The position numbers were made by a program, and so were the translations under genes. Under the pieces are notes generated by a model, which was not told the DNA's origin, did no database searches, and saw only the letters and a program-made list of their open reading frames with translations. DNA of 64,000 nt from Tepidanaerobacteraceae bacterium (GTDB lineage Bacteria > Bacillota > Thermosediminibacteria > Thermosediminibacterales > Tepidanaerobacteraceae): contig JANLFP010000002.1 in the NCBI GenBank assembly GCA_024655905.1, positions 259,829 to 323,828 of the forward strand, given 5' to 3'. Below, piece by piece: positions 33,344 to 43,525 of the stretch (position 1 is its first letter; the number at the start of each line of letters is the position of its first letter).

Positions 33344-33351
33344 ATCCGGGT

Positions 33352-33373
33352 GGCCGCAAAGCGGCCGTTTTTT
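33352..33373 (+). terminator. Rho-independent terminator after phoU
   Basis: GGCCGC and GCGGCC arms with an AAA loop, then G and six T. Confidence 0.88.
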
Positions 33374-33483
33374 ATTTTGCAGGTAACGATAAGCCGTTGA
33401 CCGAATGAGATATCATTCCAAAGGAGAAGGAATTCTGGAATAAATTAAAAAAGCCTAGGGAAACATAAGGATAGAAATTTAGG

Positions 33484-33515: not shown

Positions 33516-34229
33516 GTGCCCATTGGAGTTATTCTTTTGCTGGTTATAGCAGTCCTTATTTATTTTGGCCTTTTGCAGAGGGTTTTAGACAGAATGCATA
33601 TGTCTGATAAACTGGCACTGGCTTTTGTAGGCGCCATGATTCTTGGCACTTTTCTACCAGCCATCCCCTTGGGCAAGGGGCTTTCTATAAATCTCGGTGG
33701 AGGCGTGGTGCCAATAATAATAGCGATATATCTAATTTCCACATCCAGTACAGGGCAGGAAAGAATGAGGGCTATTGTCGCATCAATCGTGACGGGAGTG
33801 GCGATATACGCTGCAGGCAGGCTGCTTCCAGCCGAACCGGGCACAATGTTCATCGATCCGATGATAGCTTTTTCCGCATTGGCTGGAATAGTGGCTTACC
33901 TTCTTGGCCGTTCCCGAAGGGGGGCATTTACAGCGGGGATTTTGGGAATCGTAATCAGCGATTTCATTTATGCTATGGGTATAACCACAAGGCCTATCGG
34001 TACTGTCATAGGTGGAGCTGGGGTTTTTGATGCGGAAATAATTGCCGGAGTAATAGCGGTGGTGCTGTGCGAAATCGTGGGAGAAACCAGGGAAAGACTT
34101 CAAGGGGGTACGGCAGCCAAAGCCGACAGCAAATCCCCTGAGAATCCGGAAATGGCAAGTATGCTGGCAGAGAGTGATACTGAATCATCAAAAGAGGGTG
34201 AACAGGAAAATGAAAAAAACCATGAATAA
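33516..34229 (+). CDS. DUF1614 family membrane protein
   Basis: A 237-residue protein with about seven membrane segments and a charged, Glu/Ser-rich tail (about 195-237). The blocks LGTFLPAIPLGKGLSINLGG and the following VVPIIIAIYLI are characteristic of DUF1614. No function is known; the family is common in spore-forming Clostridia. GCGAGGTG precedes the GTG start. The gene overlaps the start of spoIIP by 20 bases, so the two are coupled. Confidence 0.82.
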   Translation: MPIGVILLLVIAVLIYFGLLQRVLDRMHMSDKLALAFVGAMILGTFLPAIPLGKGLSINLGGGVVPIIIAIYLISTSSTGQERMRAIVASIVTGVAIYAAGRLLPAEPGTMFIDPMIAFSALAGIVAYLLGRSRRGAFTAGILGIVISDFIYAMGITTRPIGTVIGGAGVFDAEIIAGVIAVVLCEIVGETRERLQGGTAAKADSKSPENPEMASMLAESDTESSKEGEQENEKNHE

Positions 34230-35415
34230 AACAATTGCCTTTTTTGCACTCTTTGTTGCCTTGTTTTGCTTTTGCTCCGAAGCAGTTGCAGAAGAAGAAA
34301 AACAAGATGGCTATTATACAGCATATGAGGAAGGTACTGATAAAAAAATTTTTGCCACCAGCATGATAGTAAATGTTGGAGATCAGTATCTGGATGAAGA
34401 CAATAATTTTTATGAGATTATAAAGGTTTCAGGGGATAAGGCATTTGCAAGGTTTTTGCGCAAGGTGGATATAGCAAAATCTTTGGATTTTCCTGAAGCG
34501 AAGGCCATGGCGTCTGACGTTCAAGGGGACTATGGTGTTCTAAAAACTGCAGAATTAAAAAAAGAGAAGGTCATAGCGATATATCATACCCATAGCGATG
34601 AATCTTATATACCTACGGACGGCAAATCCAGCATTCCGTATAAAGGCGGAATATTCAAGGTTGGCGATTCATTGACGGCGGCGCTCGAAAGAAAGGGTAT
34701 AAAGGTTATTCATTCCATGAAGCCGCATGATCCTCATGATTCCATGGCTTATCAAAGGTCGCGGCGTACCGCAATGGATCTCTTAAAGCAAGGTCCCGAT
34801 GCGCTCGTGGATGTTCACAGGGATGCTGTTCCTGCTGAAGAATACCAGGGGGACATTAATGGAAAACAACTTGCCAAAGTCAGGCTGGTAGTTGGCCGAC
34901 AAAACCCTCAGATGAGCACCATCAATAATTTTGCATGGCAATTGAAGGCCTCTGCGGATAAAAAATACCCCGGGCTTGTAAAAGGGATATTTTACGGAAA
35001 AGGAGGGTATAATCAGGATTTATATCCTCATTCAATGCTGATTGAAGCAGGAACATATACAAATTCGCGGTATAATGCTGAAGACGGGATTGATTTTATG
35101 GCTGATGTAATAGCCGATACAATTTACGGTGCTGATTATCAGAAAAAAGCCGGCCCCGGGGGCAGTGCCACGACACAAATTCCTGGTGAAGGCGGTGGAG
35201 CTGCTAAAGCAATAGGATGGATTGCCGGCATTACAATTGCAGGAATTGGAGTTTTCATGCTCATAAGCACAGGTGGCTGGAAAGAACTTTCAACCAAGGT
35301 GGGGCGTTTTGCAGGCTCAGAATTTGCCAATTTCCTGGGAAATATAAAAAAAATAGGCTCAAGAAGGCAAAAAAAACCCGATGAAAATAATAAAGAAAAT
35401 GATAAAAATGAATGA
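34210..35415 (+). CDS. spoIIP: Stage II sporulation protein SpoIIP
   Basis: A 401-residue secreted or membrane-anchored peptidoglycan hydrolase acting in engulfment. It has a signal peptide ending near SEAVA (about 27-31), the catalytic HTH motif in IAIYHTHSDESY (about 119-130), a second conserved block ALVDVHRDAVP (about 198-208), and a C-terminal membrane segment (about 335-355) followed by a basic Lys/Asn-rich tail. In Bacillus, SpoIIP works with SpoIID and SpoIIM and cleaves both peptide and glycan bonds. A C-terminal anchor after the enzyme domain is unlike the N-terminal anchor of Bacillus SpoIIP. GAGGGTG lies 9 bases before the ATG at 34210. Confidence 0.87.
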   Translation: MKKTMNKTIAFFALFVALFCFCSEAVAEEEKQDGYYTAYEEGTDKKIFATSMIVNVGDQYLDEDNNFYEIIKVSGDKAFARFLRKVDIAKSLDFPEAKAMASDVQGDYGVLKTAELKKEKVIAIYHTHSDESYIPTDGKSSIPYKGGIFKVGDSLTAALERKGIKVIHSMKPHDPHDSMAYQRSRRTAMDLLKQGPDALVDVHRDAVPAEEYQGDINGKQLAKVRLVVGRQNPQMSTINNFAWQLKASADKKYPGLVKGIFYGKGGYNQDLYPHSMLIEAGTYTNSRYNAEDGIDFMADVIADTIYGADYQKKAGPGGSATTQIPGEGGGAAKAIGWIAGITIAGIGVFMLISTGGWKELSTKVGRFAGSEFANFLGNIKKIGSRRQKKPDENNKENDKNE

Positions 35416-35424
35416 GGGATCTTT

Positions 35425-36318
35425 ATGTCAAAATACCTGGCGGTGGTTGCCGTAGGGATAATAATGGGAGTAACAGCCAGATTGCATATGCTGCGTGTGG
35501 ATTATAGACAGTATCCGAGTTACCCCCAAGGTTATTTGATACACCTATCGCTGGGATTAATAGCAGCCTTTCTGGGCGCAGTTGCCGTTCCTGCTCTCAT
35601 TTCGAAGGAATATACTGCCGTAACTTTTCTGGCACTGGCTGCTCAGCAATTTCGGGAAATACGGGACATGGAGCGTAAAAGTCTCGAGAATATAGAAGAT
35701 ACTGAACTGGTGCCCAGAGGTTCGGCTTATATTGAAGATATTGCAAAGGCTTTTGAATCGAGAAATTATCTTGCCATTTTAACCGCTCTTTTTTCCAGCC
35801 TGGTTTTACAGCTTTCAGACAACATTCCTGCAGCTATTTTGACCGGAATCGCAGCTATTATCGTTTTAAGTATGATGACCAGGAGAAAGAAAATAAAGGA
35901 TATTGCAGTAATCAGACCCGCGAAAATAAGATTTGAAAATTCCCTGTTGTGCGTGGAAAACATCATGGTTATGAATGTGGGATATCCGGATTCCCGAAAA
36001 ATAATAGAAGAACAGGGTCTTGCCGTGATGATAGAACCGAAAGATGACAATGCCAGGGCAACCCTTTCCAGCATTGGGCAGAGACAGGCCATAGTGCATG
36101 ATGCCGCATCATTGCTGGGCGTCAAGAGGGATGTTACGGACGTAGACTTTATGCCGCTGGCAAGGCTTGACATTGAAACGGGCCGGGTGGGCGTCATAAT
36201 AGTGCCCATGGAAAGGGATATTGAAAGTCTGATAGAAGCGGTAAAAAGGGTTCCTGTTCTGGAAAGCTCCAGGCGGAAGCCGTTGGAGTCCTTTGCAGGG
36301 AAACAGGCTGAAGATTAG
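35425..36318 (+). CDS. YIEGIA-family membrane protein
   Basis: A 297-residue protein with about five membrane segments in the first half (about 4-20, 40-70 and 115-150) and a cytoplasmic C-terminal domain. The family name motif appears as AYIEDIAKAFESRNYLAI (about 104-121), with aspartate where the usual motif has glycine. The function is unknown; the family is found in spore formers. It begins 9 bases after spoIIP and is followed directly by a 64-residue companion gene, the usual arrangement. Confidence 0.8.
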   Translation: MSKYLAVVAVGIIMGVTARLHMLRVDYRQYPSYPQGYLIHLSLGLIAAFLGAVAVPALISKEYTAVTFLALAAQQFREIRDMERKSLENIEDTELVPRGSAYIEDIAKAFESRNYLAILTALFSSLVLQLSDNIPAAILTGIAAIIVLSMMTRRKKIKDIAVIRPAKIRFENSLLCVENIMVMNVGYPDSRKIIEEQGLAVMIEPKDDNARATLSSIGQRQAIVHDAASLLGVKRDVTDVDFMPLARLDIETGRVGVIIVPMERDIESLIEAVKRVPVLESSRRKPLESFAGKQAED

Positions 36319-36327
36319 GTGATAAAA

Positions 36328-36522
36328 ATGGATAATATAGGAATTAAAGAAGCAATTCTGGCTGTCATTACTTTAAATGAACACCAACCAGCCTCGGGAG
36401 TGCCCGTTTTTTACGCTAAAGATGAAAGAGAGCGGGACAAGATAGCTTTGTATCTTTCAAAGATACTTTCGGCCATGGTACACGACCTTGAAAATGGTAC
36501 TTATATTATAGTTAGGCATTAA
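36328..36522 (+). CDS. Small companion protein of the YIEGIA gene
   Basis: A 64-residue soluble protein, starting at the ATG at 36328 (AGGTGAT just upstream, overlapping the YIEGIA stop); a GTG at 36319 would add three residues. The sequence has an ATLN-like N-terminal strand and ends GTYIIVRH. Small proteins of this kind accompany YIEGIA genes and are annotated in databases as a capping subunit, a label I recall but cannot verify. It has no signal peptide or membrane segment. Confidence 0.65.
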   Translation: MDNIGIKEAILAVITLNEHQPASGVPVFYAKDERERDKIALYLSKILSAMVHDLENGTYIIVRH

Positions 36523-36595
36523 AAACCATTATTATATTTTGAATATTGCACTGGCAGACTAAGAAAAAGTCCCAAATTTAATGGAGGAATCTTTT

Positions 36596-37075
36596 TTGAA
36601 AGTTATATATTCCTGCTACTGGGGCAGCTACCTTGCAGCGGTGGCTGCTTCGCTGCATCTAGGAATTATTAACGATGCAGAATTATCCATGGAAAAGATG
36701 TTAAACCTGCCTATGTTTGGAAAAATAAAAAATGAAGATTTCGGCGAAATGAAATTCATAGGTTTTGATGGCCGAAACAGGGGAGTTTTTATCATCGGGG
36801 CGAAAAGGTCGGGCCGCATAATTGAAAGGGCGCTCAACGGTTTTGCACAGATATACGGCATGGAGAAAAAAACGGTGAAATTTATTGATTTGACCGTTTA
36901 TAATAATTTTTATATCGGAACCGGTGTATTTTTGATTCGAATGTTGGGATTGAGAAGGATGGGAATGAAAATACTTTTCTGCGGAATTAAAAAAAGTTTT
37001 GCAAAAATTAAAGAACTGGTGGGCAAAATTATGAATGAACCGGATTATTTTCAGGAGAACGTGGAATTATTATGA
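36596..37075 (+). CDS. DUF3189 family protein, first copy
   Basis: A 159-residue DUF3189 protein. The N-terminal loop MKVIYSCYWGSYLAAVAASL resembles a nucleotide-binding loop. The rest alternates beta strands and helices, with a strongly basic C-terminal third (RRMGMKILFCGIKKSFAK). The start is the TTG at 36596, because GGAGG (36583-36587) lies 8 bases upstream; the ATG at 36581 is part of the ribosome site. The family is restricted mainly to spore formers and has no known activity. It is coupled to the second copy by a four-base overlap. Confidence 0.82.
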   Translation: MKVIYSCYWGSYLAAVAASLHLGIINDAELSMEKMLNLPMFGKIKNEDFGEMKFIGFDGRNRGVFIIGAKRSGRIIERALNGFAQIYGMEKKTVKFIDLTVYNNFYIGTGVFLIRMLGLRRMGMKILFCGIKKSFAKIKELVGKIMNEPDYFQENVELL

Positions 37076-37545
37076 AGATATTTTATTATTGCTATGGCAG
37101 TGCCCACTCATCTGTGGTGGCGGCATCTATTCATCTGGGCATGCTGCCGTCTGATAGGCTTCCATCTGCAAAAGAAATTGAAATGCTGCCGCATTTTGAT
37201 AAAACCGATTCCTGTGAAATAGGAACTCCTTTTTTCATGGGTATTGATGAATATGAAACTGAAATATTTATAACAGGAATGACAAATGAGAGACATCTGG
37301 TTAAAAAAGCCATATACAGTTTCTTAAGACATTCCGGGATAGATGAAAGCGATCTAATGATGGTGGATGCTCTGAAATATGTAAACTTAAAAACCCGCCT
37401 AGGAGGTTTTCTTTCCCGGAGGATGGGTCTTGTGGCGTTGGGAAGACCTTTGACAATAAAAGGTATACTTGAAAAATATGCGGATTTTTTAGCGCTGGTG
37501 AAGGAAACAAAGCATAAAGAGCTGATGGGTTTAAATAAAACTTGA
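37072..37545 (+). CDS. DUF3189 family protein, second copy
   Basis: A 157-residue paralog of the preceding gene, with the more typical loop YYCYGSAHSSVVAASIHLG (about 5-23). It shares the LP.F.K and FI.G blocks with copy one but is clearly diverged, so the duplication is old. The ATGA overlap with copy one indicates translation in a fixed ratio, which fits a heterodimer. The function is unknown. Confidence 0.85.
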   Translation: MKIFYYCYGSAHSSVVAASIHLGMLPSDRLPSAKEIEMLPHFDKTDSCEIGTPFFMGIDEYETEIFITGMTNERHLVKKAIYSFLRHSGIDESDLMMVDALKYVNLKTRLGGFLSRRMGLVALGRPLTIKGILEKYADFLALVKETKHKELMGLNKT

Positions 37546-37570
37546 CTTGATTTGATTTTTCGGCAATAAT
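37542..37570 (+). promoter_or_regulatory. Candidate sigma-A promoter of the DUF512 gene
   Basis: TTGACT (37542-37547) and AATAAT (37565-37570) are 17 bases apart, each one base from consensus. The -35 overlaps the stop codon of the second DUF3189 gene. It would drive DUF512-der-plsY-gpsA as a separate, vegetative unit. Confidence 0.55.
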
Positions 37571-42046: not shown

Positions 42047-43525
42047 ATGGAAAAGTTTGATCTGTTCAAAGATATCGCCGAACGGACCGGAGGGGATATT
42101 TATATAGGCGTGGTAGGGCCTGTGAGGGCGGGTAAGTCGACTTTTGTAAAAAAGTTTATGGAATTGATGGTAATCCCCAATATTGCCAACCCTAACGACA
42201 GGACCAGAGCAAAAGACGAACTTCCGCAGGCCGGTGCGGGAAAAACAATAACTACGGCAGAGCCCAAGTTTATACCTAGCGAAGCCGTAGAGATAACCTT
42301 TAAAGAAAACATAAGGTTTCGGGTAAGACTGGTGGATAATGTTGGTTTTACCGTGAGAGGTGCTCTGGGATATGAAGATGAAAATGGTCCTCGAATGGTT
42401 TCGACTCCCTGGTTCGAAAAAGAAATACCATTCCAGCAGGCAGCAGAAATCGGCACCAGGAAAGTTATAGAAGAGCACTCTACCATCGGCCTTGTTATAA
42501 CAACTGATGGCACTATAACGGAGATTCCGCGCGAAAATTATGTCCACGCGGAAGAAAGAGTAGTGGAAGAATTAAAAGCTATCGGCAAACCCTTTGTTAT
42601 AATTTTGAACACCTCAAGGCCCATGGACGATAGGACTATGGACCTTAAGGAAATTCTGGAGTCAAAATATGATGTGCCGGTTATGCCGATGAATTGCCAG
42701 GATTTAACAAGCGAAGACATCTATGCAATTCTGGAAGAAGTGCTATACGAATTCCCTCTAAGGGAAATTAACATACGCCTTCCGAAATGGATTGAAGCGA
42801 TGGAAAAGGAACACTGGCTGAGAAAGCAGTTTGAAGAATCGATTACGACTACAATTAAAGATGTGCGCAGGCTAAGGGATATGGAGAAGACGCTGTCAGC
42901 ATTCAATACTTTTGATTTTATCGACAGCGTCAGACTGAAGGAGATGAATCTGGGTCTAGGCATAGCGGATATAGAAATGGAAGCCCGCAAAGATCTTTTC
43001 TATAAAGTTTTAAGCGAAACAGCCGGCATTAATATATCTGGAGACCATCAATTGATTAAACTGGTGAAAGAACTCACGGTGGCCAAAAAGGCATATGATA
43101 AAGTTTCAAAAGCCCTTGATGATGTTCAAAAAGTGGGTTATGGAATAGTACCTCCTCAACTTGATGAATTGACTCTTGAGGAGCCGGAAATTATTAGACA
43201 AGGAGCAAGATTCGGAGTAAAATTAAAGGCGGTAGCTCCTTCGATACACATGATAAGAGCCGATATCAGGGCTGAAGTATCTCCTATAATCGGCACTGAG
43301 AAACAGAGCGAGGATTTGATTAATTATATTATGAATGAGTTTGAGAATAATCCTTCCAAAATATGGGAGACAAACATCTTCGGGAAATCGTTGAATGACC
43401 TTGTAAGGGAAGGCATTCAAAACAAATTGTTCAGCATGCCTGAATCTGCCCAGTCTAAGCTGCAGGAAACCCTGCAGAGAATAGTAAACGAGGGAAGCGG
43501 CGGTCTGATATGCATAATACTGTGA
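42047..43525 (+). CDS. spoIVA: Stage IV sporulation protein A, coat basement ATPase
   Basis: A 492-residue SpoIVA, the same length as the Bacillus subtilis protein. It is a TRAFAC-class protein that hydrolyses ATP and polymerises on the outer forespore membrane to anchor the coat. Walker A is GPVRAGKST (about 24-32), followed by DNVGFTVRGALGY and the NTSRPMDD block. The middle domain and the conserved C-terminal region (GGLICIIL at the end) are complete. The ATG at 42047 follows AAGGAGGG; the frame is open further up to 41939, but that part is leader. It is monocistronic, with a candidate sigma-E promoter. Confidence 0.96.
   Translation: MEKFDLFKDIAERTGGDIYIGVVGPVRAGKSTFVKKFMELMVIPNIANPNDRTRAKDELPQAGAGKTITTAEPKFIPSEAVEITFKENIRFRVRLVDNVGFTVRGALGYEDENGPRMVSTPWFEKEIPFQQAAEIGTRKVIEEHSTIGLVITTDGTITEIPRENYVHAEERVVEELKAIGKPFVIILNTSRPMDDRTMDLKEILESKYDVPVMPMNCQDLTSEDIYAILEEVLYEFPLREINIRLPKWIEAMEKEHWLRKQFEESITTTIKDVRRLRDMEKTLSAFNTFDFIDSVRLKEMNLGLGIADIEMEARKDLFYKVLSETAGINISGDHQLIKLVKELTVAKKAYDKVSKALDDVQKVGYGIVPPQLDELTLEEPEIIRQGARFGVKLKAVAPSIHMIRADIRAEVSPIIGTEKQSEDLINYIMNEFENNPSKIWETNIFGKSLNDLVREGIQNKLFSMPESAQSKLQETLQRIVNEGSGGLICIIL

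Follow-up and report, generated by a model that had tools for sequence, protein, structure and literature searches.

A candidate forespore operon with a second, C-terminally anchored SpoIIP in a heat-loving spore former

Within a 64,000-nucleotide (nt) stretch of contig JANLFP010000002.1 from a Tepidanaerobacteraceae bacterium, a heat-loving spore former, six open reading frames (ORFs) lie on the forward strand at 33516-37545 of the stretch (hereafter the window) and encode, in order, DUF1614/YphA, SpoIIP, YIEGIA, YIEGIA_cap (PF21835), and two DUF3189 proteins, each of them exceeding the curated Pfam cut-off in a profile search. On balance, and with some reserve, we favor reading these genes as one operon that would be expressed in the forespore from a sigma-F-type promoter and would serve envelope remodeling at engulfment. 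The predicted compartment is supported by motif statistics and the probable enzymatic competence by conserved residues; beyond these, we infer forespore expression in this organism, assembly of a complex, action at engulfment, and any chemistry of the DUF3189 proteins.

A second SpoIIP paralogue in a conserved gene cluster

The SpoIIP of the module, hereafter SpoIIP2, is one of two in the genome, which also holds a canonical spoIIP behind gpr (gpr was recognized by eye) and a single spoIIM. SpoIIP2 scores above the curated cut-offs of both of its families (PF07454, 213.6 against 24.4 bits; TIGR02867, 188 against 123.15), and its catalytic and zinc residues H179, E182, H254, and E330 (numbered along the stop-to-stop ORF) are 100% conserved in the SpoIIP2 and canonical groups alike. 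The window protein consists of a signal or transmembrane segment at residues 9-27, the amidase domain, a C-terminal transmembrane segment at 334-352, and a tail of 49 residues. A hydrophobic helix past the amidase domain is present in all 126 SpoIIP2 proteins and in none of the 39 canonical ones, and the tail behind it has a median length of 39 residues and a net positive charge in 94 of the 126. In a quick tree of the amidase domain alone, a branch with a Shimodaira-Hasegawa-like approximate likelihood-ratio test (SH-aLRT) support of 99 divides 39 canonical SpoIIP sequences from 36 SpoIIP2 sequences and the extra high-scoring L215 and L219. Differing in both anchor and branch, the module SpoIIP lies outside the canonical gpr-linked SpoIID-SpoIIM-SpoIIP type. 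The preliminary description of this locus had noticed neither this paralogue status nor the enzyme and pseudoenzyme-like character of the DUF3189 pair, the canonical spoIIP being invisible to it elsewhere in the genome.

Behind the N-terminal helix, the window SpoIIP2 carries AVA-EE, which resembles a signal-peptidase site, and an AxA stands there in 86 of the 126 SpoIIP2 proteins, so that cleavage of this helix may not be general. The C-terminal helix is missing from two SpoIIP copies of multi-copy Bacilli (Metabacillus and Cohnella), and no significant sequence relatives of the module SpoIIP were found in the PDB. Three Desulfotomaculum-like metagenome-assembled genomes (MAGs; L067, L134, and L152) carry tandem copies, an extra SpoIIP2-type gene standing just upstream of DUF1614.

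We compared gene neighborhoods in two sets of 80 loci, one drawn from the phylum and one made up of named loci, with Bacilli represented by a few named genomes. The one-strand order DUF1614-SpoIIP2-YIEGIA-cap-DUF3189 (one or two copies)-DUF512-Der recurs, with losses, across many clostridial spore formers, and this clustering is far beyond chance. At each of 136 loci the cap is the next gene after YIEGIA and has the same orientation, and SpoIIP2 is accompanied by DUF1614 in 122 of 126, with the proviso that loci were selected by YIEGIA or DUF3189 and co-occurrence counts with those two are therefore biased upward. By YIEGIA identity, the nearest named loci belong to a Thermoanaerobacterales MAG (86%), Thermosediminibacter litoriperuensis (73%), and a Tepidanaerobacteraceae MAG (71%). 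The type strains of Desulfotruncus arcticus and Thermosediminibacter also have the module. Both YIEGIA and YIEGIA_cap are present and adjacent in the window, and the latter is what the preliminary description had called a small soluble partner; the protein measures 67 amino acids from a GTG start and 64 from an ATG. The structural model of YIEGIA, a read-through fusion with the cap and uninformative on binding, gave no fold match, and YIEGIA had no significant sequence relatives in the PDB. Three genomes (G036, G075, and G108) hold a second, more divergent YIEGIA gene outside the module. The module also occurs at loci titled Acetobacteraceae and Desulfovibrio (L167 and L174); as it is a Firmicutes sporulation module, these MAG titles are probably wrong.

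Distribution across the phylum ties part of the module to sporulation. With SpoIVA as the marker of spore formers in a sample of 129 genomes (114 positive, 15 negative), DUF3189 was found in 90 of the positive and none of the negative genomes (Fisher p 1.7e-9), and YIEGIA in 60 of the positive and one of the negative (p 6e-4), p values that are descriptive since genomes are non-independent. The sole SpoIVA-negative genome with YIEGIA is a fragmented draft of 280 contigs in which SpoIIP is present. The proposal that the families are largely confined to spore formers therefore holds for DUF3189 and, with this one case, for YIEGIA, but not for DUF1614, which has matches in Sulfolobus (S. acidocaldarius) and Methanosarcina (M. 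acetivorans) and appears as an archaeal family, arCOG02159, in PMC5898192. YIEGIA-family proteins have been reported from the spore membrane proteome of B. cereus (PMC8624511) and from spores of B. pumilus (PMC12017682), and the passage of the latter paper that cites Decatur and Losick (1996) gives B. subtilis yphB as non-essential and sigma-F controlled.

Promoter motifs and unit boundaries

With its two mismatches, the sigma-F-type site before the window's DUF1614 gene (Table 1) would be unconvincing if taken alone, and the argument for it comes from relatives. For the search we used GYATA-N14/16-GGNRANAHTR, which we take to be the B. subtilis-type sigma-F consensus. Motifs with at most one mismatch precede DUF1614 at 37 of 118 loci, against 1.6 expected from dinucleotide shuffles, and motifs with at most two mismatches at 92 of 118, against 20.0 or 17.5 expected in two analyses; these counts are non-independent, as near-copy loci occur across the two sets. 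Most sites cluster 60-80 nt ahead of the domain start. No comparable excess was seen upstream of SpoIIP2, YIEGIA, DUF512, or Der, YIEGIA having a mild one at two mismatches, and an element resembling a sigma-F site also precedes some stand-alone YIEGIA genes (L121, L128, and L151). Among controls, SpoIVA gave sigma-E sites at 19 of 30 loci (4.2 expected) with sigma-F at chance, and SpoIIR gave a weak sigma-F signal (4 against 0.6 and 11 against 5.9 expected), possibly owing to a rough placement of its start. Canonical spoIIP is preceded by sigma-E-type sites in 14 of 39 cases (5.0 expected) and by sigma-F sites near chance, with read-through from gpr possible, and sigma-A sites stand upstream of DUF512 at 88 of 120 loci (10.8 expected). 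Predicted membership of the module in the sigma-F regulon is thus supported by motif enrichment among relatives. Together with the DUF3189 and YIEGIA profiles against SpoIVA, this forespore-type promoter upholds the earlier suggestion of a conserved sporulation-linked module.

The module begins past a hairpin behind phoU and ends at 37545, where the sigma-A-type promoter of the DUF512-der unit begins; with a sigma-F-type promoter before DUF1614 and a sigma-A promoter at DUF512-der, the unit boundaries match the module. The tight packing described earlier was confirmed by the ORFs and Pfam, including the 4-nt overlap between the two DUF3189 genes and, if spoIIP starts at ATG 34210, behind the ribosome-binding-site-like AGAGGGTG, the 20-nt overlap between DUF1614 and spoIIP. 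The remaining gaps are 9 nt (spoIIP to YIEGIA), 0 nt (YIEGIA to cap), and 58 nt (cap to DUF3189). Some 4.5 kb downstream of the module, at 42047-42757, lies spoIVA (ATPase domain), and a der-plsY-...-spoIVA neighborhood is common to many relatives.

Table 1. Features of the module and its borders, in window positions (pLDDT, predicted local distance difference test)
Feature	Position	Strand	Basis
Terminator-like intrinsic hairpin GGCCGC-AAA-GCGGCC with T run, end of upstream pst/phoU operon	33350..33379	+	read from sequence
Sigma-F-type promoter (putative), GAATA (33438-33442), 15 nt, GGGAAACATA (33458-33467)	33438..33467	+	two mismatches to GYATA-N15-GGNRANAHTR
DUF1614/YphA-like integral membrane protein, about 6-7 transmembrane segments	33516..34229	+	PF07758 41.5 bits and PF24124 33.0 bits, each over its cut-off; transmembrane scan
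SpoIIP2	34210..35415	+	PF07454 213.6 bits; catalytic residues, C-terminal transmembrane segment, separate branch
YIEGIA (B. subtilis YphB/SeaA family), transmembrane segments, then cytoplasmic alpha/beta domain	35425..36318	+	PF14045 417.9 bits; model pLDDT 84.9
YIEGIA_cap, soluble partner, 67 amino acids, in frame immediately past the YIEGIA stop	36319..36522	+	PF21835 95.8 bits
DUF3189, degenerate copy, loop SCYWGSYLA vs CYGSAHSS	36581..37075	+	PF11385 134.9 bits
DUF3189, canonical copy (C7, G9, H12, S13, S14, H21, D43, S115, R116, R125)	37072..37545	+	PF11385 190.5 bits; AlphaFold pLDDT 94.9; conservation
Sigma-A-type promoter (putative) of the DUF512-der unit, TTGACT, 17 nt, AATAAT	37542..37570	+	sequence; relatives' enrichment

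The DUF3189 pair

Across 53 canonical DUF3189 proteins, C7, G9, H12, S14, D43, G111, G112, S115, R116, G124, and R125 are conserved at 96-100%, whereas 18 degenerate copies have lost most of the conserved-site residues together while retaining the structural A18, G57, and D59. Because copies were sorted by loop motif, the loop differences arise partly by construction, but the losses of D43, G112, S115, R116, and R125 do not. On a plain reading, the two proteins would be an active subunit and a pseudo-active partner, and a pair of arginines together with a loop rich in glycine may point to a phosphate-bearing ligand. Canonical and degenerate halves occur in one chain at six loci (L044, L049, L052, L055, L132, and L182); a model of DUF3189 itself as a two-domain fusion was dropped, since every single copy aligned to the first half. 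The degenerate copy comes first in the window and in L113-L115, and the canonical copy first in most other lineages. The CxGxxHSS loop may resemble those of cysteine phosphatases and phosphotransferase system IIB proteins; Pfam gave no such match. No significant sequence relatives of DUF3189 were found in the PDB, and neither DUF3189 nor DUF1614 turned up under its name in the literature searched, which covered subscription papers thinly.

Lone DUF3189 genes in genomes with a single SpoIIP excluded strict tracking of the second SpoIIP by DUF3189. Lone copies at L239-L244, L247, L251, and L253 are divergently oriented and sit in another conserved neighborhood, whose members we take, from their sequences, to be YigZ-like, NUDIX, CoA-binding, and TSUP-like genes and possibly a yunB-like sporulation gene.

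Competing readings and relation to known systems

Under the operon reading, SpoIIP2 would be an active peptidoglycan amidase/endopeptidase whose N-terminal signal directs its export and whose C-terminal helix keeps it in the forespore membrane, with a short tail left in the cytoplasm. Anchored in this way, it would cut wall material, septal or intermembrane, from the side of the forespore, and canonical SpoIIP would do most of its work from the mother cell. Its membrane partners would be DUF1614 and YIEGIA, the cap would bind YIEGIA at its cytoplasmic domain, and the two DUF3189 proteins may act as a cytosolic active/pseudo-active heterodimer that feeds or regulates the complex. Extended to many clostridial spore formers, this would amount to a second wall-cutting machine for engulfment, acting from the forespore side, in which DUF1614 and YIEGIA-cap hold a tail-anchored SpoIIP2, a DUF3189 enzyme and pseudoenzyme exert control from the cytosol of the forespore, and the whole replaces the SpoIIB and SpoIVFA localization routes; this extension we put forward only tentatively and consider doubtful. 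Several observations weigh against the operon reading. Bacilli retain YIEGIA-cap alone of the module, Alkaliphilus-like genomes retain YIEGIA-cap-DUF512-Der without SpoIIP2, and other genomes (most of L033-L052) have SpoIIP2-DUF3189 without YIEGIA; such piecewise loss indicates a modular set of parts, and not six members of one obligate complex. DUF3189 is also found alone, away from the module, and the promoter evidence is consensus matching, with a sigma-G consensus that partly overlaps that of sigma-F.

In a rather unlikely alternative, the operon would act later in the forespore, in forespore-side wall trimming or in spore membrane transport, dormancy, or germination, and engulfment would be left to canonical SpoIIP with SpoIID and SpoIIM. 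The presence of YIEGIA in mature spores of B. cereus and B. pumilus and the retention of canonical spoIIP and spoIIM in the genome speak for it, yet the promoter is of sigma-F type and not clearly of sigma-G type, which points to early forespore expression, and the amidase belongs to the engulfment family. We think it less probable still that these are independent sporulation genes without a common mechanism, kept beside der-plsY-gpsA-spoIVA by operon inertia: the independent loss of parts, the nearness of spoIVA and der, and the solitary DUF3189 genes fit such a loose cluster, but it does not readily account for a promoter class of its own, for a distinct sigma-A promoter where the module ends, for YIEGIA and cap remaining together at all 136 loci, or for fused DUF3189 copies. 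The preliminary description itself suggested a complex driven by nucleotides and containing two P-loop-like DUF3189 proteins, which is highly improbable. DUF3189 does start with a strand-loop-helix like that of a phosphate-binding loop, and the top Foldseek ranks of the canonical model are small GTPases, though none significantly so (best E 0.14, probability at most 0.23, TM-score no higher than about 0.35 among the hits listed). None of the 53 canonical proteins, however, has a lysine in loop positions 7-16, the Walker A motif GxxxxGK[ST] was not found in them, a Pfam search returned no family besides DUF3189, and one of the two copies lacks the site altogether; P-loop or nucleoside triphosphatase (NTPase) identity was rejected on these grounds.

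The operon we favor is, in kind, already known in part. In the relevant section of their study, Makarova, Galperin and Koonin (2015; PMC5898192) describe a DUF1614(arCOG02159)-SpoIIP-YphB(YIEGIA) neighborhood, three genes in common with ours, and propose a membrane remodeling complex with SpoIIP; that section mentions neither the cap nor the two DUF3189 proteins, neither the promoter class nor the status of SpoIIP as a second paralogue with a C-terminal anchor. Pfam, moreover, already pairs YIEGIA with its cap, and B. anthracis has duplicate spoIIP genes, one under sigma-F and one under sigma-E (PMC3789822), likewise two SpoIIP paralogues under different sigma factors. The two SpoIIP copies examined from multi-copy Bacilli, those of Metabacillus and Cohnella, differ from SpoIIP2 in having no C-terminal transmembrane segment and in coming from genomes without the module. 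The module had been presented as undescribed, which thus does not hold for its core, while the promoter, the anchored SpoIIP2, and the paired DUF3189 proteins seem to be new.

With the B. subtilis-type cluster yphA-yphB(seaA)-small ORF-der, the module shares the order YIEGIA-cap-Der and an upstream YphA-like membrane gene, but that cluster lacks SpoIIP2, DUF3189, and DUF512; Paenibacillus, Cohnella, and Metabacillus have YIEGIA-cap-Der only, with a YphA-sized membrane gene upstream. For DUF1614/YphA, YIEGIA, its cap, and DUF3189, four families whose function is unknown, the module would provide a compartment and a place in an operon. According to Galperin et al. (2012; PMC3533761), clostridia have neither of the known routes, SpoIIB and SpoIVFA, that could bring SpoIID/M/P to the septum. 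A second SpoIIP that is made in the forespore and tethered to the membrane, together with its conserved partners, would supply concrete, testable candidates for that question. Compared with the SpoIID-SpoIIM-SpoIIP engulfment machine of B. subtilis, SpoIIP2 belongs to the same Pfam and TIGRFAM family and keeps the invariant catalytic residues, but it stands on a separate branch, with a C-terminal transmembrane segment, a forespore-type promoter, and other neighbors, in a genome where the canonical copy coexists with it.

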